A DNA stretch of 25,437 nt from a virus: positions 1-25,437 of the IMG/VR virus record IMGVR_UViG_3300049491_001096, one strand, 5' to 3'. Below are positions 1 through 17,656 of the stretch, in pieces. The notes beneath the pieces are model-generated. The model saw nothing but the letters and a program-made list of their open reading frames with translations. It searched no databases and had not been told where the DNA came from. The stretch's first letter is position 1, and each line of letters begins with the position of its first letter. A program made the position numbers and the translations under genes.

Positions 1-254
1 TCCACCGATTCGGCCTCGATCGTCGCCTTCGGTTTTGCCCACGGGAAGCGGTTGCGCAGATCCGCCGGAATGCGCGCGTGCAGCCGCCCGAACCACGTAT
101 CCCAATGTTCGGGCGTATCCACACGCGGCAACTCCAGCCCGTACCAATGCTGGCGCCTGGCAATACGAGGCGCACCTTCCGGCGGCAAGCGTGACGCCAG
201 CCCGTCAATTGCACGCTGCAATTTGACGATGCAGGCATCGTCGGCGCTAAGCAT
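1..254 (-). CDS. Partial hypothetical protein (runs off the left edge)
   Basis: An open frame starts with ATG at 254, 6 nt after the previous stop, and is uninterrupted for 84 codons to the window edge. It reads MLSADDACIVKLQRAIDGLA, then PRIARRQHWYGLELPRVDT and FGRLHARIPADLRNRFPW. The predicted start is helical and charged, with several Trp. Codon use matches the neighbouring genes. I do not recognise a family; the missing C-terminal part could decide. It seems to belong to the same operon. Confidence 0.65.
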   Translation of the reverse strand, partial: MLSADDACIVKLQRAIDGLASRLPPEGAPRIARRQHWYGLELPRVDTPEHWDTWFGRLHARIPADLRNRFPWAKPKATIEAESV

Positions 255-260
255 CGCCGC

Positions 261-623
261 TCACGGTGCTGGCGGAACGTCCGGCGTCAGGTCGTCGAGC
301 GACTTGGCCACCGTGCCAATGGCCGCGCCCTTGCCGGCCAGCGCATCGGCTGCAGCCTTCAGCGCCGCCAGCGACGCATCCACAGCGGGCGTGGTGTTGC
401 CCGCGTTGCTCAGTGCCACCACCAGCTCGTCGAAAGCCTTGGTGAGTTGCGCTTCGCCGGCGGTGAGCTGGTCGCCCACCTGGCCGAGCGTGGTGGCCAC
501 GCCGTCTATCGCGGTTTTGAGTTCGGTGTTGTTCATGGTAATCAGCTCCTTTAGCTGTTGAAGTTGTGACAGCACTTCGCTGCCGGGTGGGGGAAAGTGG
601 AAATGAAAATGCACATCGTTCAT
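261..623 (-). CDS. Small helical protein with two possible starts
   Basis: From the ATG at 623 the product has 120 residues. It opens MNDVHFHFHFPPPGSEVLSQLQQ, a His/Phe alternation followed by an amphipathic helix. Residues from 30 on (MNNTELKTAIDGVATTLGQV) form a long Ala-rich coiled-coil helix ending in prolines (TPDVPPAP). The second ATG at 536 has a strong AAAGGAG ribosome site 9 nt upstream, better than the GAGG of the first, so a 91-residue short form is likely also made, or is the main one. No membrane segment is visible, so it is not a classic holin. Function unknown; it follows the secreted protein gene by a short gap. Confidence 0.75.
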   Translation of the reverse strand: MNDVHFHFHFPPPGSEVLSQLQQLKELITMNNTELKTAIDGVATTLGQVGDQLTAGEAQLTKAFDELVVALSNAGNTTPAVDASLAALKAAADALAGKGAAIGTVAKSLDDLTPDVPPAP

Positions 624-630
624 GGTGGCC

Positions 631-1344
631 TCACGGCGCTTGCTTGCAGGCCGTCGCTTCCGTGGCCGGCCCGCCATCCAGCGCCATGTAGGTCGTGGAG
701 CCGACCACCACGCGCACCGTGCTGCCGTTGCATAGCGCACCGACTGTGGCCTTGCGAACGGTGGCACCGGTAAGGCGCCCGGCCGAATACGTGAAGATCG
801 TGCCGCCAGCAGCGCGCCAAGTGTCGGGCGGCGCGGCTGGCGGCACCGGCTCGGCGCCGCACCATGCTGGCGAGTACACCGATGGCTTAGCCGGGTCTTC
901 CACGGCGGGCCTGTCGAACGTGATGCCCGCGGGCCAGTTCGCCGAGTCTTGCAGCAATTTACAGCCGCGGTAGTACAGCAGCGCCAGTTCGTACCGCTCC
1001 TGGTCGCCCACAATTGGGCAAGCTGCCCCGTCGTTCTCCAGATGCGCCTGCATCAGCATGTCTGGCGCCGCCAATATGCGGCCCAGCGCCGTTGCGAAGA
1101 CCCGATAGTCCTTGCACTTGTTTGGAATTGGGAAGCGCTGCGCCTGCCAATACCACTTCGTGGGCAAGTCACCCTGCCGCGTCGGCAAGTGGCACCACCA
1201 CACATCGATTTCGCCCCAGGCACTGCTCACGGTCCGGTATGCGGTGCCGGTGGCCGGCGAGAACGTGAACTGGCTCGGGAAGCAGTCGTAGGCGCGCGCC
1301 GCGAACGGGAGCAGCAGCGCGACGATGAGCAGAATGCGTTTCAC
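631..1344 (-). CDS. Secreted cysteine-rich protein of unknown function
   Basis: The 237-residue product has a Sec signal peptide: MKR, a hydrophobic LLIVALLLPF core and an ARA cleavage site before Tyr19. The mature part has eight cysteines spread over its length (first at DCF, last at TACKQ), an even number that fits disulfide bonds in the periplasm. No lipobox is seen. A proline-rich linker (EPVPPAAPPDTW) separates the larger N-terminal region from a C-terminal beta-like segment (ATVRKATVGALCNGSTVRV). It is not recognised as a named family. An exported product in a tail-fibre cluster may act on the host envelope, for instance in lysis or exclusion, but nothing here proves it. Confidence 0.82.
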   Translation of the reverse strand: MKRILLIVALLLPFAARAYDCFPSQFTFSPATGTAYRTVSSAWGEIDVWWCHLPTRQGDLPTKWYWQAQRFPIPNKCKDYRVFATALGRILAAPDMLMQAHLENDGAACPIVGDQERYELALLYYRGCKLLQDSANWPAGITFDRPAVEDPAKPSVYSPAWCGAEPVPPAAPPDTWRAAGGTIFTYSAGRLTGATVRKATVGALCNGSTVRVVVGSTTYMALDGGPATEATACKQAP

Positions 1345-1347
1345 AGC

Positions 1348-2412
1348 TCACTCCCACATGGTCACATCGATCCACAAATTGCCGTTGCCGGGAACGATGC
1401 CGGTGGCGCTGTAAACCTCGCTTGGGTTCAGTGGGCTGCCGTCGAACTTCGTGAGCACGATCGACGTGTTGCCGAGCCCGAGGTTGCCATGGCCCATCAC
1501 TTTGCGGCCGAAGTCATCGTCGCTGCTGATCTGGATCGTGCCGGCCTTGGGATACGTCCTGAGGAAAGACAGTTGCAGCGATGTCGAAGTCTGCAAAACG
1601 CTCAGGCCAAAGCCCTTGGGCGCGTGGTCCGTGTCGTCCTGGATGTACCAGACGCCAGAGGCGTTGGGGCGCAGGATGCAATGAAGTCTGTCCATGAAAT
1701 GCTCTCCGTAGAAAATTGGGTCGGCCGGGTCGGGGTTGCGCTCCCAGCCCTGCACGCCCGTAGGTGCGTACAGGAATCGGCCCTGGCCGACGTTGGCGCT
1801 GGCGCACTGGAAATTCGGGGCGCTGGTAGCACTGCCGACGACCAGGCGCATCAACCCCGTGACGTTGAACGCCACGGGGTACGGCGTGCCGTTGATGCTG
1901 AAACTCAGCGCGCCGCGGTTGAAGCGGATGCCAACGACAACCGGCACATCCTCGCTGGACGAGAATGGAGACGCGTAGGGTGTCTGCACGCCAGCGTTGA
2001 ACTTCTTGCCGCTGAAACCGTAGATCGTGTATTCATCGGCTGCGGTACCTGGGTATGTGGTCGGGTTGGCGAAGCCGGACAGGCCCACAAGCTGCACATC
2101 GCCCCCGTTGAACAGGAACACTTCCGCGTAGTAGTCGCCGTCATTGCCGCGTGCTACCTCTGACAGCATTTGCAGGAAACCGCTCGAGCCGTAGGCGGTG
2201 GTTTTGTTGGCGCAAACGGTCACGGCGCCGCGCGTGCGAGTTGTGCTCCACCCGACGATGGCGGGCGCAGGCGGTGGCGGCGCGCTGATCGTGTCCAGGA
2301 GCGTCGCATCCTTGTCCACGAGCAGGACCAGCACATCACTCGCGCCCGCATCGATCCGGCTCACTTGCAGGATGCTGCCCGCTGTTCGATGGATCGCAAT
2401 TTGGGTTGACAT
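1348..2412 (-). CDS. Virion protein with SPRY-like domain
   Basis: The 354-residue product starts MSTQIAIHRTAGSILQVSRIDAGA. A proline-rich linker (SAPPPPAPAIVGW, residues 43-55) leads to a region at about 90-215 that resembles the SPRY fold used in phage structural proteins: GDYYAEVFLFNGGDVQLVG, YGFSGKKFNAGVQTPYA, then VVVGIRFNRGALSFSING. The C-terminal 140 residues (HFMDRLHCILRPN, ISSDDDFGRKVMGHGNLG) are not recognised. The start at 2412 is 14 nt after the previous stop. It likely works at the tail tip with the LamG and fibre proteins; this is inferred from position. Confidence 0.8.
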   Translation of the reverse strand: MSTQIAIHRTAGSILQVSRIDAGASDVLVLLVDKDATLLDTISAPPPPAPAIVGWSTTRTRGAVTVCANKTTAYGSSGFLQMLSEVARGNDGDYYAEVFLFNGGDVQLVGLSGFANPTTYPGTAADEYTIYGFSGKKFNAGVQTPYASPFSSSEDVPVVVGIRFNRGALSFSINGTPYPVAFNVTGLMRLVVGSATSAPNFQCASANVGQGRFLYAPTGVQGWERNPDPADPIFYGEHFMDRLHCILRPNASGVWYIQDDTDHAPKGFGLSVLQTSTSLQLSFLRTYPKAGTIQISSDDDFGRKVMGHGNLGLGNTSIVLTKFDGSPLNPSEVYSATGIVPGNGNLWIDVTMWE

Positions 2413-2426
2413 GTCGGCCTGTTCCG

Positions 2427-3143
2427 TCAGCGAGCGAGCGCGCGCGTGCGCGGCGGGAAGGGGTCGGTGCGGACACCGCGCGTGATGCGAAAGTCCCACG
2501 CCAGCACCGCGCCCAGGGTCATCGCCACCAAAGGGGCGCCGCTCACAGGCACGTTGCCGCTCTTGTTGTGGCTGCTGCTGGTTGCACCGACGGTCAGCAC
2601 CAGGTTGGCGGAACCGAGCGAGTAGTCCCAGGCGATGCGGAACGGGCTCGCCACGTTGACCGCGAAGGCGCCTGTCGATGTGGCGTTCACGATGAAGTTG
2701 CCCACCGATGCGTAGTACATCTGCACCAGCAGGTTGCCCGAGCCATTCATGCCAAGATAGACGCCCTTGGCCGCGGTCGTGTCGCAGGTTTTGAAAAACG
2801 GCACCGCCGACAGCGACGAAAACTTGGCCCAGCCTTCCGCCGTCCAGGGTGTCGTGCCGTCGTGCAGAAACTCCCAATCCGCCGCCGCGCCAACGACCAG
2901 GTTTCCGCTCTGCAAATTCATGATCGCGCGGTTGAACGCATCGCGCCCGCCCGCCGCACTGACGACCGGCGTGCCGCTCAGCGCGATTGAGCGGCGCTTC
3001 AGCGAGTCATCGACAAAACGCGTCGCGTTTTCCGCATCGTGTCGCGGGCGCACAAGCAGCTCGACATCGCGCCGGTACGGGTCGCGCGTTCGTGGCGGGT
3101 CCAGCAGCATGCCGAGCACTTCGGCCGAGGTGGCGCCGCTCAT
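2427..3143 (-). CDS. LamG/concanavalin-like virion protein
   Basis: The 238-residue product begins MSGATSAEVLGMLLDPPRTRDP. From residue about 40 it shows the pattern of a LamG-type jelly roll: RFVDDSLKRRSIALSGTPVVSAAGG, then WTAEGWAKFSSLSAVPFF, a GVYLGMNGSGNLLVQMYY strand pair, and a closing DFRITRGVRT. Such domains bind sugars and appear in phage tail adhesins. It overlaps the fibre gene by ATGA and is likely part of the same tail-tip complex. The end is proline- and arginine-rich. Confidence 0.8.
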   Translation of the reverse strand: MSGATSAEVLGMLLDPPRTRDPYRRDVELLVRPRHDAENATRFVDDSLKRRSIALSGTPVVSAAGGRDAFNRAIMNLQSGNLVVGAAADWEFLHDGTTPWTAEGWAKFSSLSAVPFFKTCDTTAAKGVYLGMNGSGNLLVQMYYASVGNFIVNATSTGAFAVNVASPFRIAWDYSLGSANLVLTVGATSSSHNKSGNVPVSGAPLVAMTLGAVLAWDFRITRGVRTDPFPPRTRALAR

Positions 3144-4966
3144 GAGAGTTGCAGGATGCCGAGTTTGAAAGTGAACTTCTCGGCGCTGCCAGGCGTATAG
3201 GCGTTGCGCGCCACCGCCACGCCGTAGATCGTCGTCGTGCTGCCGCCGCAGGCAAGCAGTTTGGCGCCGTCGAGCACGGCCTCGATCGTGCCGTTGCCAC
3301 TGCCCGTGGCAAAAGCCGCGCCATAGAAGGGCACCATGCAGAGCAAGTCCTCCATGTCGGCATCGCTAGGCGCCCAGGCCGCGTTGTCGTTCTGCATCGT
3401 GATTGACGAGCGGAACAGATACAGGTCGATGTCGGGCTTGGTGCTCTGCGCAATCGAGTCGATGACCGATGCGCTGACCAGAAGGAACGCGCCGCCATTG
3501 GCCAGGCCGACACCGGTGAAGCTCAGGATCGTTGGCGCGCTGGTGCTGTTGCAGATCACGTCGCCCGCCGCGTAGACGTTGGTGTCCGCGGGGCGGGTGT
3601 AACTGGTTTCTTTAACAACGCCTGACATGGATGAAGCTCCCGAAGCGCTGCCAACGCCGCGCATGGTGAAGTAGTTGGTGCCGTCCGACACGACCATGGC
3701 ACCCTGCCCGGTGGTGAGCGCCAGCGTGGCCGCGCCGTCGATGGTCGATGTGGTCGGCGTGATCGTGAGCGTGCCCGCGCCGCGGTTTTGCACCCAGGTG
3801 TACCAGCCGATACCGAAGGCTCCGGTGGCCTGCGGCAGCGTGCCCGCAATGGCGCTGGCGTTGCTGTGAGTGACGAGCTTCGTGCGGTCGCCACTCACGT
3901 ACGTGTAGCTGGTTCCGGCCTGCGCGTTGACGCCGGTGCCAGCCGCGTCGAAGACCAGCGCGCGGTAGTTCGTGCCGTCGCTGGTGATGAGCGCGGCCAT
4001 GCCGCTGTCGAGCACCAGGGTGGCGGCGCCGTTAACAGTGCTGGTGGTCGGGGTGAGCGTGACGGCGCCTGCGCCGATGGCTTCCAGGCTGGCGTAGTAG
4101 CCGTCTTCAAAGCCCGTGGTGCCGGCCTGGGCGATCGTCGCTGCGATGCTCGACGCATTGCTCAGGGTGACATGCTTGCCTCGGTCCCCCGCGACCACGG
4201 CATAGGTGGTGCCGGTCTGCGCATTGCGCACATGCGCACCGCGAATCGTGCCGCTGGTGGTGATTGGCGAGCCGCTGGCGGTTTGCACGCCACCGGATGC
4301 ATCGACGCTGGACACCGTACCGCCGGTGCCGTCGTTGTTGCTCAACACCACGTTCGCGCCATCGGCGATGAGCTCCGCCGCCTTGCCTTGCGTTACCGCA
4401 ATACCCGAGCCGGCCGCGGTTTTTACGGTGAGCGTGAAAGCGCCGCTGGTGTTGTTGGTGACGCACCAGCCCTGCGGACCATTGGGCACGATCACGCTGC
4501 GGTTGCCGGTGAGTGCGCCGGTGACGTTGATGATTTGGCTGCGCGCCTGCGCGGCGCTCAGGGTCACGTCGGCGGTGGTCACGGCCACGCTGGTGCGGCC
4601 GAGCACGCCGGGCAGGTCTTGCCACACCCGCCAATCGACGTAGCTGGCCACGCCGCTGGCATTGGTCGTCACCACGTAGAGCGGCACTCGGCCCGCCGTG
4701 AAGCCGCTGGTATTGACGCTGGCCACGCCCGCGCGCGTGCTCTCCACGTAGTTGGTGGCGGATACCGTGCACGTCACTTGCTGGTCGGCAATGGTCGTGA
4801 GTACGCCATCGACCAGCATCGGCCCGCCGTGCAAGCCGAAGATCACGCCACTGCTGTTGGCCGGGTCCAGGCCGAACAGGGCGGACGGTTTTAGCGCGGT
4901 GAACATTTCGCCGATGGGCGTTTCCTTGTTCGCCTGGCTCGGGGTGATGGTGGTGGGGAAGGTCAT
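3140..4966 (-). CDS. Tail fibre-like protein with repeated beta domains
   Basis: The 608-residue product starts MTFPTTITPSQANKETPIGEMFTALKP. Residues about 249-340 and 348-437 are two clear copies of one domain (GTTYAVVAGDRGK / GTSYTYVSGDRTK; TLTPTTSTVNGAATL / TITPTTSTIDGAATL; SDGTNY in both). A more diverged relative is at about 127-212. A GTVSSVDASGGVQTASGSPITTSGT segment at about 216-240 is the linker type seen in many tail fibres. The C-terminal region (about 460-608) is a distinct beta domain. An ATGA overlap couples it to the hub. A receptor-binding or tip-decoration role is inferred. Confidence 0.85.
   Translation of the reverse strand: MTFPTTITPSQANKETPIGEMFTALKPSALFGLDPANSSGVIFGLHGGPMLVDGVLTTIADQQVTCTVSATNYVESTRAGVASVNTSGFTAGRVPLYVVTTNASGVASYVDWRVWQDLPGVLGRTSVAVTTADVTLSAAQARSQIINVTGALTGNRSVIVPNGPQGWCVTNNTSGAFTLTVKTAAGSGIAVTQGKAAELIADGANVVLSNNDGTGGTVSSVDASGGVQTASGSPITTSGTIRGAHVRNAQTGTTYAVVAGDRGKHVTLSNASSIAATIAQAGTTGFEDGYYASLEAIGAGAVTLTPTTSTVNGAATLVLDSGMAALITSDGTNYRALVFDAAGTGVNAQAGTSYTYVSGDRTKLVTHSNASAIAGTLPQATGAFGIGWYTWVQNRGAGTLTITPTTSTIDGAATLALTTGQGAMVVSDGTNYFTMRGVGSASGASSMSGVVKETSYTRPADTNVYAAGDVICNSTSAPTILSFTGVGLANGGAFLLVSASVIDSIAQSTKPDIDLYLFRSSITMQNDNAAWAPSDADMEDLLCMVPFYGAAFATGSGNGTIEAVLDGAKLLACGGSTTTIYGVAVARNAYTPGSAEKFTFKLGILQLS
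3656..4222 (-). repeat. Two tandem copies of a fibre domain (about 90 residues each)
   Basis: The segments 3947-4222 and 3656-3925 encode homologous domains in the tail fibre gene. Matching blocks are the Y-x-x-x-x-GDR-x-K start, the HSNAS / LSNAS turn, the TPTTST strand and the SDGTNY end. The copies are similar in protein but clearly diverged, so the duplication is not recent. Confidence 0.85.
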
Positions 4967-7902
4967 GCGGCGTCCTGCAAGGGGTAGCCTTCGCCGACCA
5001 CATCACTCACCATGCGCACATCGAGATAGAGCGGGTTGGCGAGGCTGTGGCCGTCGGTGGCGCGTTGGGCGGCGGTGTAGGTGAGGCTGGCAGCGGCCAC
5101 GGTGCCAAAGTCGCGCAGCAGGGTCGTGAAGGCGCCGCTGGTGTAGAGGCGCGCGTGATACAGCTCTGCCGCCTCGCCCAGCGGGCATGAATCGCCCAAG
5201 GCCCCGCCGAAGCGCGTGGGCATGCGCGTGCGGCGCGTCCAGCTCACGAGGATGTCGCCCGTGCTGGAATCTCGCGCGGCGACCAGCAGCACGGGGCTGA
5301 TGGGCTTGAGCGCAATGCCGTATTCGGTGATGGGCACGCCATCGACTGCCGCCGCCGTGGCGCCATCGGTAACGCCCTTCACAAAAAAAGGCACGGCCAG
5401 GTCGGCCGCGCCGCGGTCGATGCGGTCCATGCCCGGCACGCCGAGCAGGGCGAAGCCGTCGCCCGCGGTGATGCCGGCGCAATACTGCTCCGTGCCTTTG
5501 TCGCCCAGGTTGACGAAGCCGGTGAGCGTGTACACGCCCGCGCTCACCAGCGCGGCGGTGCGGAACTGGCCCAGCACCAAGCGGCCGTTCACGCCGACGG
5601 TGAAGGCGTTGAGGCTGCGATCGGCGAGCAGGGCATCGCGCGTGGCGCTGGCCAGGGTGCCGTCGCCCACATCTACGGTGAGGCTGCAGCCTTCGCCGAA
5701 CAACGGGCCGGGCGTGAAGGCGCCAGTGGCCGCAGTGACGGTGCCGAAGGTGGCGTCGTTGGCGTAGGTGGCGCGCTGGGTGTAGGCCACATCGTCGGGT
5801 GAATCGAGCCAGCGCGCGCCGGTGCTGGTGCCGGTTTTGACCAGGCCCCAGTAACCTGCATCGTTGTCGGCCGCACCGCGCAGGTTGGGCAAATCCAGCG
5901 CCATGAATTCGGCCACGGCCGGGGCCACCACGGTGATGGCGTTGCGGTCGTCGGTGCTGGCCGTGCCTGTATAGACAAGCGCGCTGGTGTCGTTGAGCTC
6001 CAGCTTGGCCTGGTGCGTTGTGCCGTCGTACGTGCTGGCGCGGATGAGCAGGTTGTACAGGTTGCCTTTTTCGTCGGGCAGGTAGATCGCGTCGCCCGGC
6101 TGCAGGGTGCTGCGCCGATCGCTCCAGCGCGAATCGGCCGTGTAGCGCGCGGCCTGGCGCAGCAGGTTGTAGGCAATGGCGCGGCCCTTGGCGGCGCTGG
6201 GCGTGAAGCCGACCAGGGTGGAGAGGCTCCTCACATTGGCGCTGGCCGGGCTCACGCGATCGGCCTGCACGAAGCCGGGATCGTGGTTGTTGAGCCGGTC
6301 GGGGAATTGCAGGCCGGCGATGGCCGGCTGTTCGTCGTCGTTGTCTTCCTTTAGCCCGCTGAAGGGCTTGCCGGGTTCGCCGACTTCGGCATTGGTGAGC
6401 GTGGCCACCGGCGCCAGGCCGCGCGGCATGAAGCGCAGCGGGTTGCCGGGCACCAGGTCCACGTAGTACATGTCGCAGAGCTTGGCGACGGCATCGGCCG
6501 TGGGGCCGCTGCATTGGTACTCATCGACCATGATCGCATCGCAAGCGCTGGTGTCCCAGTCCGCCAGGTCGATGGCTTCGTTCATTTCCAGCTCGTGGTC
6601 GATGATGCTGGATAGGCTGACCTGGCCGGGCAGCCAGGTGTCGAGCGGAAAGTCAGGCTCCGGCGGCAGCGGAGGCGCGGTGAAATCCGCCGACCAGATT
6701 TCGCCACGGCGCAGGGCGACGAAATCGGTGCGGAAGGTCTGCGCGTTGGGGCCGCCGCTGCCCTTGAAGGTTGAGACCGTGCCCGATGCACCGCCGCCGG
6801 CGTGCGTGTTGGTGAAGGTGTACACCAAAGCGCCATCGATGTACACGCGCGCGGTTTGGTTGGCGCCGGCGGGGATGACCAAGGCGATGTGCGAAAACGT
6901 GCCGGCAGCGAAGTTGGGGCCGAGCTGCAACGATGAGCCCAGATCGGCGCCGCTGATGCGCCAGTTCCAGCCCGACGGGAAGACGGGCAAGGCTTCGGCA
7001 TACCAATAGAAGCCGCTGTCGGTGTAGCTGACGACGATGGGAAAGTCATTGCTGCCCGAGTCCCATGTGCCGCGGCCTTCGAGCGTGAAGCCTTGTGCCG
7101 GGTCGATGGCGAGCGAGGCGCCCGCCCACTGCACGCCGGTGGCCGAAGTAGTGGGGCCGATGACGATGGAGGTGCCATCGAAGGCGTAGGCGGTGCCAAA
7201 GAAGCTCGGCGCATGGTTGAAATACGAGGCGTCGGCGGCGTCGAGATTGAGGCCGGTGGTCAACTGCACCACCGGGCCGATGGCGCCCAGCGTGGCCGAG
7301 GTGCTGAGCTCGGCCTCCACCAGGGGCAGGCTCTTGCTGCCGCCGCAATTGAGGCCGCGGATGCGCACCGTGGTGATGCCGCGAAAGGCCGAGACATTGC
7401 CCGCGCCCTTGGCCGTTTCGTGCACGCTCCAGGGCGTTTGCGCGGGGTTGCCGTCGGCAAGCTCGATGCTCTCCCAGGCATTGGTGAGTAGCGAGGCGGC
7501 GATGCTGGAGCCGCTGCTTGCGGCCAGGGCAGTGAATTCGATCTTCTTGTTCACCCACGCGCGCAGGATAACCTGCACATCGGTCTTGTGGGTGGCCAGA
7601 AAGATCACGTCGATGGTGAAGCTCAGGCTCGGCGGCTCGCCGCCCTTGCCGCCGCCCTGCACTTCGTGAAACTGGCTCATCCAGATGGGGCTGAGCGTGC
7701 GCTTGAAGGTGCCGTAGCCGCGCGACATGGCGGTGCCGGCGTTGATTTGCGGGGCGCTCAGGTCGCCGGGGTCCGGCCGATCCGGCGGCACCAGCAGGCC
7801 CAGGCCCGAGCCGGCCATGAAGCCGAGTTGCGCGCCGGCGGGGCCACCGATGAGGAAGCCGACTGCGGCGCCGCCGATCTGGAGGACTTGCTGCGTGCTC
7901 AT
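4963..7902 (-). CDS. Large tail hub / tip protein with inserted LamG-like domain
   Basis: The 979-residue product opens with a glycine-rich hydrophobic segment (VGFLIGGPAGAQLGFMAG), then GYGTFKRTLSPIWMSQFHEV, the usual N-terminal pattern of large tail hub proteins of the GTA gp15 / TipJ kind. Residues about 213-410 look like a concanavalin/LamG fold (FDGTSIVIG, then HIALVIPAGANQTARVYIDG). From about 425 the sequence (SSIIDHELEM, CDMYYVDLVPGNPLRFMPRG, ARYTADSRWSDRRSTLQPGD) fits the phage-tail_3 hub domain. The C-terminal 300 residues are beta-rich. It would sit at the tail tip and contact the receptor. No glycoside hydrolase TIM barrel is evident, unlike RcGTA gp15. Confidence 0.88.
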   Translation of the reverse strand: MSTQQVLQIGGAAVGFLIGGPAGAQLGFMAGSGLGLLVPPDRPDPGDLSAPQINAGTAMSRGYGTFKRTLSPIWMSQFHEVQGGGKGGEPPSLSFTIDVIFLATHKTDVQVILRAWVNKKIEFTALAASSGSSIAASLLTNAWESIELADGNPAQTPWSVHETAKGAGNVSAFRGITTVRIRGLNCGGSKSLPLVEAELSTSATLGAIGPVVQLTTGLNLDAADASYFNHAPSFFGTAYAFDGTSIVIGPTTSATGVQWAGASLAIDPAQGFTLEGRGTWDSGSNDFPIVVSYTDSGFYWYAEALPVFPSGWNWRISGADLGSSLQLGPNFAAGTFSHIALVIPAGANQTARVYIDGALVYTFTNTHAGGGASGTVSTFKGSGGPNAQTFRTDFVALRRGEIWSADFTAPPLPPEPDFPLDTWLPGQVSLSSIIDHELEMNEAIDLADWDTSACDAIMVDEYQCSGPTADAVAKLCDMYYVDLVPGNPLRFMPRGLAPVATLTNAEVGEPGKPFSGLKEDNDDEQPAIAGLQFPDRLNNHDPGFVQADRVSPASANVRSLSTLVGFTPSAAKGRAIAYNLLRQAARYTADSRWSDRRSTLQPGDAIYLPDEKGNLYNLLIRASTYDGTTHQAKLELNDTSALVYTGTASTDDRNAITVVAPAVAEFMALDLPNLRGAADNDAGYWGLVKTGTSTGARWLDSPDDVAYTQRATYANDATFGTVTAATGAFTPGPLFGEGCSLTVDVGDGTLASATRDALLADRSLNAFTVGVNGRLVLGQFRTAALVSAGVYTLTGFVNLGDKGTEQYCAGITAGDGFALLGVPGMDRIDRGAADLAVPFFVKGVTDGATAAAVDGVPITEYGIALKPISPVLLVAARDSSTGDILVSWTRRTRMPTRFGGALGDSCPLGEAAELYHARLYTSGAFTTLLRDFGTVAAASLTYTAAQRATDGHSLANPLYLDVRMVSDVVGEGYPLQDAA

Positions 7903-8357
7903 GCTGCAAGCCCCAGGCCAGGCACGCGGTACAGGCCCACGAGCTGCACCGCGCGGTCGCCGAGCATGAAGCGCGCCTTGATGACGCGCTTGTGGCGGAA
8001 GCCTTCGGCCTCGACCCAGTACTGTCGATCTGACTGGATATCGACCAGGATGCCCAGGTGCTGGGGGTGGCCTTGCTGGAAGCGCACCAGGGGCACATCG
8101 CCGGGCAAGCGGTCGTCGTAATGGATGCGTTGCATATGCTCTTCGCACAGCCCCTGGAGCACGGCGCCATCCGGCACGCGGCCGTAGCCGGCGACGTTGA
8201 ACGTGCGCGGCTTGATGCCATGCTCCCAGCTCGCGCAGACCAACGGGCCGGGGCAATCCAGGCCCACGCCGGGCACGCGGCCCTGGTGGTGGTACGGCGT
8301 GCCGACGTAGCCGAGCACGGTGGCCACGAAGGCGGCGCGCGCTGCCGTGGCGCTCAT
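7899..8357 (-). CDS. NlpC/P60-type tail peptidase (TIGR02219-like)
   Basis: This tail-tip cell-wall hydrolase would cut peptidoglycan peptides during DNA entry. The 152-residue product has GYVGTPYHHQGRVPGVGLDCPG, the nucleophile motif with Cys35, and HPQHLGILVD with His100. A third polar residue is probably in the YWVEAEGF segment. The length and motifs fit the GTA gp14-like family. ATGA overlaps connect it to the genes on both sides. The catalytic Cys is followed by PGP rather than the common AG/IG, a mild departure from the family motif. Confidence 0.9.
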   Translation of the reverse strand: MSATAARAAFVATVLGYVGTPYHHQGRVPGVGLDCPGPLVCASWEHGIKPRTFNVAGYGRVPDGAVLQGLCEEHMQRIHYDDRLPGDVPLVRFQQGHPQHLGILVDIQSDRQYWVEAEGFRHKRVIKARFMLGDRAVQLVGLYRVPGLGLAA

Positions 8358-9190
8358 GAATCCGCCCCCACCACTTGGGCGGCGGTGACGCCCTCTTGGC
8401 CACCGTGGTTGACGATGTTGTTGAACTTGTCGCGGCAGTCTTCGAACGCGCGCTTGGTGCACCCGGCCACGATGGTGCCGGTTTGCCCGATCACCGGAAT
8501 GCCGGCATACAGCGGCACGGCCAGGGTAATGTGGCCGCCCGCGGTGTGCTCGAGCACCCACAACGGGCGGCCGAGGCTGGCATATGGACCATCGGCAAAG
8601 TACAGCTCGCCGGCAGTGAAATAGTCCGTGGCCTGGGCCAGCGCGGCGCAGGTGAATTCACGCGCCGAAGTGACCGCGGCGATGGTGAAGGCGAATGTGA
8701 ATGCCGCCTTGCTCTTGGTGCACAGCGCCGAGCCGAAGCGGTACGGGCACAGCGGGCCGGTGGAGCGCGTCATGTCCTGCAAGGTGAGCTGGCGCAGATC
8801 CCGCAGCTCGACGGTGAAACCGCTCTCGGTGGGCGTGGCATTGCCCAGACGGTACTTCGGCCAGGGGCGAAAGCCCTGGGTAGTGTCGTCCTGGTTGTAC
8901 TGGTTGACTTCGACCACCGCGCCGCGCCAGCGCCCGGAAATGAACTGCGCGCGGGTCATGTCATCGGTCGTCAGGAATTCGATGTTCCCGCTATCGACGC
9001 CGAAGCCCAGGGTGCAGGTGATGCTGGAGAGGGTGAAGCCAGGCGCCGCCAGGTACACATCGCCGCCGATGGTGGCCGCGCGCGCGCCGCCGGTGTAACG
9101 AAACACCACGCCATCGGCACGGGTGATGCGGATGCTCCAGGCCAAAGCCTTGACGACGCCGGCCAGGTGGGCCTTGAGGGCCGCGGACAT
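8354..9190 (-). CDS. Tail hub protein, DUF2163 / TIGR02218 family
   Basis: The 278-residue product starts MSAALKAHLAGVVKALAWSIRITRADG and contains the family segment FLTTDDMTRAQFISGRWRGA. The C-terminal part has conserved cysteines in LCPYRFGSALC and GCTKRAFEDC followed by KFNNIVNHGG. This matches the GTA gp13-like hub family; the related lambda gpL and GTA hub proteins are reported to hold an iron-sulfur cluster, and the four cysteines could do so here. I chose the ATG at 9190, 7 nt after the previous stop, over the ATG at 9247, which would overlap by 50 nt. The stop overlaps the next start as ATGA. Confidence 0.9.
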   Translation of the reverse strand: MSAALKAHLAGVVKALAWSIRITRADGVVFRYTGGARAATIGGDVYLAAPGFTLSSITCTLGFGVDSGNIEFLTTDDMTRAQFISGRWRGAVVEVNQYNQDDTTQGFRPWPKYRLGNATPTESGFTVELRDLRQLTLQDMTRSTGPLCPYRFGSALCTKSKAAFTFAFTIAAVTSAREFTCAALAQATDYFTAGELYFADGPYASLGRPLWVLEHTAGGHITLAVPLYAGIPVIGQTGTIVAGCTKRAFEDCRDKFNNIVNHGGQEGVTAAQVVGADS

Positions 9191-16069: not shown

Positions 16070-17656
16070 TCAGCGGCGCCGGGTGCTGGTGGCGCGCGGG
16101 CGGGTAGCACTGGTTGGCGCTGCGCGGCTGGGGCTGCTGAAGGCCTGGCGAGCGGCAACGGCGAGCACGGGCGAGCGGGCGGCGCTCGGCGCCACGCTGC
16201 CGGCTTGGCGGTAGCCGCTGACGCGCAATGCCGCCAGGGCGAAAGCCATGTCGATTTCCAACGACAGGCCAGTTGGCAGAGGGCCGCTGAAGATGAGCTC
16301 GAAGGCGGCTTCGGTTTCACCGGCGGCAAGCACCGGCGCGATCTGCATGGCGCCGAGGGCCTGCGCAACGTCGGCTTCCGCAGCCAGGCCGGCATCTCGA
16401 ATCAGGCGCCCGGCCAGGCCGATGGCGGCATCGGCCTCGGCGGCCAGCCCGGTGGCCGATCGCTGAACGGCGGCTAGAGCCTGAGCCGTCTCGGCTTCGC
16501 TGGCGATGCCGACGGACCGGCCAAGGATGCCGACCAGCGCCAAGGCCGTATCGGACTCGACAGCCTGCCCTGTTGCGCGTGACGAAACGCCGAGCAGGAT
16601 CTGCGCCGCGTCGGTTTCAGCGGCCTGACCGGTGGCTTTGATCTGGCGCGCAGCCAGCGCCTGGGCCGCATCGGTTTCCAGCGCCAGGCCAGCGGCAGCG
16701 CCTTGAGCCGGCGACAGCGGCAGTGCGGTATCGGATTCACTGGCCAGGCCAGTGGCGGCGATCTGACGCGCGGTCAGGGCCTGTGCAGTGTCAACTTCAC
16801 CGGCCTGGCCGGTGGCGCGAAGTTGCAGCGCGGACACGGCCTGAGCCGTATCGGTTTCGCTGGCTTGGCCAGTGGCACGGAGCTGCAATGCAGTCAGGGC
16901 CTGCGAGGCGTCTGCTTCGCTGGCCAGGCCGGTGGCGCGGATCGCTACCGCGACCAGGGCTTGCGCAGCGTCTGCTTCACCGGCCTGGCCGGCGGCGCGC
17001 AGTTGCAGCGCGGACACGGCCTGCGCCGCATCGGCTTCGCTGGCTTGGCCAGTGGCACGGAGCTGCAATACGGCCAGGGCCTGCGAGGTGTCTGCTTCGC
17101 TGGCCTGGCCGGTGGCACGGATCGCTACCGCGGTCAGGGCTTGCGCGGCGTCTGCTTCGCTGGCCTGGCCGGCGGCGCGCAGTTGCAGCCCGGCCAGGGC
17201 CTGCGCCGCCTGAGTCTCTGCGGCGACGCCGACGGTGCGCGCCAACACCATGGACAGAGCAAATGCAGCATCGGTTTCAGCGGCCAAGCCGACGGGTGTG
17301 CCGGCAGATGCCAAGGCCAACGCAATATCGGTTTCGCTGGCTAGGCCGATGACGCGAATTTGCAGCGCGGCAAGCGCCTGTGCCGCGTCCGCTTCTGTGG
17401 CTTGGCCGGCAACACGGACCTGCACCCCAGACAAAGAAAGCGAAGTGGCGGCTTCTGTGGCAAGACCCGCTGCGATGATCTGCAAGCGCGCAAGGTTGAG
17501 TGCGGTATCGGCCTCCAATGCCACACCAGCCGGCGATCCCGCCTGGCGCGGCAGCCACGGCGGCGCGTTGGCGCTATCGGCCTCGGGCGTGAGCCGCAGC
17601 GAACGCGGCTTGCGGACCAGCGTTTGCGCGCGGAGGAACCAGCCCTGGTTTTGCAT
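16070..17656 (-). CDS. Repeat protein of about 22 tandem 20-residue units
   Basis: The 528-residue product has a short N-terminal domain (residues 1-41, MQNQGWFLRAQTLVRKPRSL onward), about 22 contiguous units of 20 residues (about 42-480; one unit is 19 long), and a 48-residue basic Ser/Arg/Ala-rich tail ending TRRR. The consensus unit is ATGQASEADTAQALAALQLR, with Gly3, Ala5, Glu7, Asp9, Ala11 and Leu14 nearly invariant. The strict period and alternating small, acidic and hydrophobic positions suggest a stacked solenoid or an elongated fibre. It lies between the 385-aa head-region gene and the first connector gene, so a capsid or neck fibre is plausible. The function is not established. No catalytic motif, signal peptide or membrane segment is seen. 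Confidence 0.85.
   Translation of the reverse strand: MQNQGWFLRAQTLVRKPRSLRLTPEADSANAPPWLPRQAGSPAGVALEADTALNLARLQIIAAGLATEAATSLSLSGVQVRVAGQATEADAAQALAALQIRVIGLASETDIALALASAGTPVGLAAETDAAFALSMVLARTVGVAAETQAAQALAGLQLRAAGQASEADAAQALTAVAIRATGQASEADTSQALAVLQLRATGQASEADAAQAVSALQLRAAGQAGEADAAQALVAVAIRATGLASEADASQALTALQLRATGQASETDTAQAVSALQLRATGQAGEVDTAQALTARQIAATGLASESDTALPLSPAQGAAAGLALETDAAQALAARQIKATGQAAETDAAQILLGVSSRATGQAVESDTALALVGILGRSVGIASEAETAQALAAVQRSATGLAAEADAAIGLAGRLIRDAGLAAEADVAQALGAMQIAPVLAAGETEAAFELIFSGPLPTGLSLEIDMAFALAALRVSGYRQAGSVAPSAARSPVLAVAARQAFSSPSRAAPTSATRPRATSTRRR
16217..17533 (-). repeat. 60-bp tandem repeat array (about 22 in-frame units)
   Basis: The DNA repeats with a 60-bp period across this span without spacers, each unit encoding 20 residues. 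Units near the centre are the most alike and those at the edges are diverged. This is the pattern expected if the array grows by unequal crossover or slippage in its middle. Because the period is a multiple of three, long open frames also appear on the opposite strand; these are artefacts. Confidence 0.95.
16801..17160 (-). repeat. 180-bp higher-order duplication within the repeat array
   Basis: The three-unit block 16801-16980 matches the next block 16981-17160 with about 15 mismatches by eye, roughly 92 percent identity. Adjacent 60-bp units inside a block differ far more. A three-unit segment was therefore copied as one event after the units had diverged. The 17161-17220 unit begins a third, weaker copy. 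Confidence 0.9.

Follow-up and report, generated by a model that had tools for sequence, protein, structure and literature searches.

The locus raises the question of what an exported, cysteine-rich protein might do at the end of a phage tail gene cluster. The window, by which we mean the whole stretch of DNA analysed, is a virus record of 25,437 bases in which a simple gene caller found 26 genes, all on the minus strand and ordered from terminase to tail. An earlier note had singled out positions 631-1344 without giving the strand; we read the open reading frame there on the minus strand as the gene of a 237 aa exported, cysteine-rich protein, with a GTG start at 1344, a stop at 631, and a Shine-Dalgarno-like GGGAG (1351-1355, minus strand) seen in the sequence 5' of the GTG. 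The coding potential of the frame was positive, and comparison with the closest homologue, in genome G884, gave a dN/dS of 0.39 at a dS of 1.32, which is near saturation. Judged by these comparisons the gene is real, with one homologue over its full length, in G884, and two others that are more distant.

The Sec signal peptide and the eight cysteines of the mature protein that had been described earlier are both present. The N-terminus (MKRILLIVALLLPFAARA, followed by YDC) combines basic residues with a hydrophobic core and an A-x-A site, giving a predicted signal peptide of residues 1-18 (1291-1344, minus strand) with cleavage between ARA and YDC. It was scored with our own heuristic, and by that score its hydrophobic core was the strongest among the 26 called window genes (3.24; next 2.50). 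There is no cysteine at +1, and because a lipobox is missing we rejected the lipoprotein reading and the predicted signal is of type I. The homologues at loci L189 (G884), L190 (genome G594) and L191 (an IMG/VR stretch) also start without a lipobox, and a signal peptide is found in all four members of the family; in L190 the gene caller took a later start, and reading the frame further upstream shows a signal peptide, MMFRLLLAAVLGGALVAVPARA. The cysteines lie at residues 21, 51, 77, 109, 128, 162, 205 and 233, making eight in the 219 residues of the mature part versus 53 in 7,930 (0.67%) in the other called genes (binomial P 1.3e-4) and the highest cysteine density of the 26 called window genes. 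Their number is even throughout (eight in the window, six in G884, four each in L190 and L191). The G884 homologue keeps six of the eight and lacks Cys77 and Cys109 together, while Cys205 and Cys233 are common to all four members, and from this pattern we infer disulfide pairs 77-109 and 205-233. Since the signal occurs in four of four members, the cysteine numbers are even and two cysteines are missing together from the closest homologue, the exported, disulfide-bonded product that had been proposed is supported at the level of sequence.

The family is small. Within the family to which G101 belongs, 399 genomes were searched and gave 11 matches. Two were accepted: the full-length homologue in G884 (51% identical, E 6e-62) and, in G594, a C-terminal match (54% over 72 residues). 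Among the other nine, three contained stops (L183, L187, L188), L180 was a 173 aa open frame overlapping an opposite frame read as a metal-transport-like gene, L181 gave the same gene list, and at L182, L185 and L186 no signal-bearing gene was called at the match. G594 and G884 belong to one genus, and three of the six genomes searched in it gave a match (G884, G594 and, at E 0.008, G691, the last of which was set aside). The L191 homologue came from a profile scan of IMG/VR, in one of 37 stretches. A search of 370 genomes, mostly overlapping the earlier sets, returned two matches, again G884 and G594, and a search of 365 returned four, of which G884 was one and the rest were discarded (stops in G225 and G324; G431 opposite a chaperonin-like gene). 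Also discarded were the single match in 399 genomes of one order (chance, with three stops), the three matches from a six-genome search with the limit at E 1 (two interrupted by stops, the other at E 0.43), and one match from each of two 50-record searches, a frame with a stop in one and 31% identity over 121-232, in a head-gene region, in the other. L190 and L191 match the window protein mainly in its C-terminal domain; because BLAST joins the G884 protein to that of L191 over 202 columns (27%, E 4e-7 in a small set), the whole architecture seems to be common to the family.

Profile and database searches placed the protein in no described family. Nothing in Pfam, PHROGs, NCBIfam, PADLOC, PDB, 50,697 phage records or 72,556 plasmid records matched the window protein significantly, and neither a catalytic family nor a virion family came up. 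With the limit at E 1, Pfam gave no family for the window protein or its C-terminal fragment, and with the limit at E 0.1 it gave none for the three homologues; PHROGs gave one family at E 0.2 for the window protein. Residues 54-78 of the C-terminal fragment weakly matched phrog_14145 (E 0.044), a 68 aa family to which no function is assigned; this family occurred in none of the 300 genomes searched in the order and in none of 14 controls. Homologues were sought by tblastn in phages and in plasmids with no result, and by 8-mer scans, which returned nothing from viral_contigs and 42 stretches from genome_contigs, none of them confirmed; a W-rich DNA pattern led to one contig, in which no relative was found. 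Our literature search found no paper on the exported cysteine-rich family. Exported proteins of such a kind are ordinary; this family is undescribed, and three homologues are a thin representation of it.

Structure prediction, which the earlier note had suggested, was informative for the C-terminal domain and not for the N-terminal part. The single-sequence model was useless (pLDDT 40), and in the AlphaFold2 model from four sequences pLDDT was at least 70 for 57 of the 219 residues, with only residues 172-237 modelled well. This domain (634-831, minus strand) was predicted to have six strands; averaged over ten-residue blocks, its pLDDT lies at 79-87 from mature residue 161 onward. It includes Cys205 and Cys233 and, in the comparison of four members, the most conserved block (TWRAxGGTIF ... 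EATxC). The remainder of the mature protein (residues 19-171; 832-1290, minus strand) stayed at pLDDT under 50, so that the model does not resolve its fold. No match to PDB or to viral models reached E 0.001 or better. The best Foldseek values were 0.82 in PDB (SlpX) and 0.48 in BFVD (an uncharacterised phage protein), the lists being otherwise mixed, and 6yft was the sole match (E 0.93) in a PDB profile search with the limit at E 10. In a second-look list, six of 31 rows cover the C-terminal domain at Z 2.1-4.0, below the level of a clear match: S-layer SlpX (two rows), the SlpA teichoic-acid-binding domain, the binding domain of the endolysin LysPBC5, and, from two putative peptidases, segments that we take to be SH3b domains. 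As modelled, then, the C-terminal domain may be described as a small beta fold; its matches are few and weak and fall mainly among wall- or surface-binding domains, and that it binds the wall is our guess from the fold.

The position of the gene agrees with the earlier description of it as the end of the tail cluster: it comes after the tail-tip and fibre genes, and its homologues stand just before lysis-type genes. In the window its GTG sits 3 nt past the stop of a gene with a SPRY-like domain (1348-2412, minus strand; PF00622 E 1.1e-05, 26.0 bits, just under the cut-off of 26.3), which is probably a fibre or receptor-binding gene and weakly matches the gene upstream of the L189 homologue (27%, E 3e-05). 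The gpJ-like tail-tip protein (Rcc01698/phrog_4271) is encoded at 4963-7902 (minus strand; the profile scan used the longer frame 4963-8403) and carries a laminin-G/concanavalin-like stretch (PF13385, 26.3 bits, cut-off 27.6) upstream of its Phage-tail_3 domain. Searches with the SPRY-like and tail-tip genes found no homologues in viral_contigs. Elsewhere in the window, between the head and head-tail genes, 16070-17656 (minus strand) encodes a 528 aa protein with many short Ala/Gln/Glu-rich repeats (phrog_14065, E 1.9e-14).

Directly downstream, beginning 7 nt after the stop, lies a partner gene (261-623, minus strand) for a 120 aa coiled-coil-like protein, which follows the exported gene directly in four of four members and is 63% identical in L189. 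An alternative start of this coil gene lies at 536, and a later start (MNNTELK) has its own Shine-Dalgarno-like site. In three of the four members (G884, L190 and L191) a possible in-frame start of the coil gene overlaps the stop of the exported gene, the gene caller having preferred a later start in L190 and L191. The L189 coil protein found nothing when searched in phages. Loci L193-L195 carry a coil gene of the window kind; about 3 kb upstream of that in L193 a gene at 744-2180 (plus strand) encodes a DUF1996 protein (PF09362 E 4.5e-45) with a signal peptide and 14 cysteines in its mature part, and a literature search on DUF1996 in phages returned one paper, whose subject is a fungus.

The window record ends 630 bases past the gene of interest, with an open reading frame cut by its end (3-254, minus strand) and ahead of any lysis gene, and the junction of tail and lysis genes is therefore visible in the relatives only. 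In L191 an endolysin gene follows 28 bases after the coil gene (phrog_181 E 1.9e-55; chitinase-type phrog_14712 E 5e-44; Pfam GH19 under its cut-off), and after it comes a gene that we read as Rz-like. By our own reading the coil gene is followed by a lysozyme-like gene in L190 (no Pfam match) and by a holin-like gene in L189 (PF25612 below its cut-off, E 0.006). In L190 and L191 the exported gene is separated from the tail tip by three membrane-protein genes, with no SPRY-like gene directly upstream there. In positions 1-3200 we found no promoter where only 0.5 would be expected by chance, so the presumed late expression of the gene is argued from its position. Terminator-like sites in the same interval were at chance level (three found versus 3.3 expected), and Rfam gave no match.

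Relatives of the major capsid protein number 59 in IMG/VR (38-82%) and six among GTDB genomes, those of Aquabacterium, Methylobacillus, Caballeronia, Variovorax, Paraburkholderia and Methylibium; because of these genera, which we take to belong to Burkholderiales, the host is probably a member of that order, and the phage one that infects bacteria living in soil and water. Relatives differ in what follows the tail. G056 (capsid 74%) matches the window genes up to the tape measure and has no exported cysteine-rich gene; its tail is followed by membrane proteins, an exported polysaccharide lyase and then, as we read them, lysozyme-like and Rz-like genes. The lyase (L144:12398-13528, plus strand; PF14099 E 2.3e-22) has a Sec signal peptide and lies between the membrane-protein genes and the lysozyme-like gene. 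G055 (capsid 78%) has a different tail and no such gene. Tails of the window type without the exported gene occur in G078 (L153) and in a second prophage of G884 (L200, on C21), where the tail module is syntenic and the tail tip 33% identical over 510 residues. Since same-type tails exist without it, the gene at 631-1344 is, as far as these loci indicate, an accessory gene.

A natural exchange between L190 and L191 bears on what the accessory might be. Their DNA is 96% identical over 3.9 kb, up to a point inside the tail-tip gene, and the tail-tip proteins are 92% identical over their first 798 residues and then diverge (1149 versus 1467 aa, with one 41% patch of 222 residues). Beyond this the exported protein is 83% identical with a dN/dS of 0.18, and the coil protein 56% identical with a dN/dS of 0.66, indicating less constraint. 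The L191 endolysin has no match among the L190 genes, and we read this as a swap of the endolysin; a 508-base stretch inside the L191 Rz-like gene is 91% identical in L190, so that the lysis region differs only in part. Because the receptor end was replaced while the exported protein was kept, the pair argues against a receptor-specific exclusion protein, as far as a single pair can whose two receptor ends might still use one receptor. Among the roles in the host periplasm that the earlier note had listed, receptor masking is weakened to that extent, and action near lysis fits the neighbourhood best.

Our tentative preference is for a late, periplasmic, disulfide-bonded accessory of an envelope or lysis step, a role we regard as possible and somewhat short of probable. 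The protein would be made when the late genes for tail and lysis are expressed, pass through Sec into the periplasm of the host, and there be cleaved from its signal and folded with disulfides; it may act jointly with the downstream coiled-coil-like protein in an envelope or lysis step, its C-terminal beta domain most likely binding a wall or envelope component and so holding the protein at the cell wall. Against this count the weakness of all structural matches, the lack of an SH3-clan match in Pfam, and a coil gene that has no known function and is under less constraint between L190 and L191, as does the SPRY-like upstream neighbour in the window and L189, which is the kind of place where exclusion genes are found. 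We also entertain, as an unlikely elaboration, that the exported and coil proteins form an undescribed two-gene envelope module exchanged as a unit, independent of the receptor-binding domain and the endolysin, which would serve the lysis of Gram-negative hosts as a disulfide-bonded factor that binds the wall in the periplasm, with a cytoplasmic partner. A spanin (Rz, Rz1) was considered for the window protein and rejected, given the cleavable type I signal, the lack of a lipobox, the 219 aa cysteine-rich part and the separate gene of L191 that we read as Rz-like.

Among known systems, the nearest in kind comes from T1-like phages, for which a 2026 report describes an SH3 protein that stands alone next to the lysis module, to its authors' knowledge the first in phages of Gram-negative bacteria (PMC13164509). 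This DUF7244 protein of Drexlerviridae (T1, KanT1), a proposed lysis auxiliary, resembles the window protein in its small beta domain, its weak wall-binding likeness, its place beside lysis-type genes, which in our family is seen in the relatives, and its occurrence in phages of Gram-negative hosts. The window protein differs in its Sec signal, eight cysteines, extra N-terminal part and linked coil gene, and in matching no Pfam family.

Superinfection exclusion, which seems to us rather unlikely, would have the periplasmic protein block an outer-membrane receptor from inside, as do T5 Llp, T1 Cor and Rtp45, or block the injection step, as does T4 Spackle. Llp and its relatives are described as lipoproteins of the periplasm whose genes adjoin that of the receptor-binding protein (PMC9586334; PMC12685063), and according to the T5 paper such proteins can be located directly downstream of gpJ in most phages of the kind it treats (PMC9586334). 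Our gene likewise directly follows a probable receptor-binding gene in the window and L189, and it shares with Llp (T5), Cor (T1, phi80) and Rtp45 (Rtp) periplasmic export, as predicted, and possible disulfide bonding, which known exclusion proteins can show (Llp Cys11-Cys58; Spackle). In contrast to these small lipoproteins, however, it carries a type I signal and is much larger at 219 aa, is separated from the tail tip by the membrane-protein genes of L190 and L191, and keeps its sequence in the one pair in which the receptor end changes, an argument that leaves the injection-block variant unaffected. Spackle (gp61.3), an inhibitor of tail lysozyme, similarly has a cleaved periplasmic signal and a disulfide, both predicted here for the window protein, but is a 75 aa helical bundle made early, whereas our protein has a beta C-terminal domain, stands among late genes and has no sequence match in PDB. 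Cor (PMC13164509) and Spackle (PMC7677548), the latter periplasmic and with a disulfide, are both described as early.

That the protein is instead an exported passenger at a permissive site, with a target outside the producing cell or a benefit for the lysogen (for example as a surface or polysaccharide factor), we consider improbable. Relatives do hold unrelated exported proteins at or near this junction, such as the L144 polysaccharide lyase and the L193 DUF1996 protein, but the constant company of the coil gene suggests a joint function, and the profile searches found no catalytic family. Most doubtful is a virion-associated protein with a signal-like N-terminus, acting as a fibre or tail-tip accessory. 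The gene does follow fibre genes, and the earlier premise that virion proteins lack signal peptides proved weaker than stated: the gpJ-like tail tips at L190:11162-14611 (minus strand) and L191:1550-5953 (plus strand) start with the signal-peptide-like MRRALALLGLLLAPAAAWAD, a fibre-like protein right after a spike-like gene (L157:1190-1954, minus strand) has a clear signal-like start, and a 1312 aa PKD-domain protein inside a tail cluster (L160:7500-11438, minus strand) bears a signal. Because tail proteins of relatives have such starts, a signal alone does not exclude a structural role; a cleavable signal together with many cysteines nevertheless fits export and not cytoplasmic assembly, the gene in L190 and L191 lies beyond the membrane-protein genes and near the endolysin, and no virion family was matched.

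As a kind, exported accessory proteins encoded where tail and lysis genes meet are common, and they are rarely explained. Here the receptor end and the endolysin were exchanged on either side of a gene that stayed conserved, which favours a general role in the envelope over receptor-specific exclusion, and the exported gene with its coil gene makes a small, testable unit. If periplasmic wall binding is true, the family would add an exported, disulfide-bonded example to the wall-binding-like lysis auxiliary reported from phages of Gram-negative hosts (PMC13164509).
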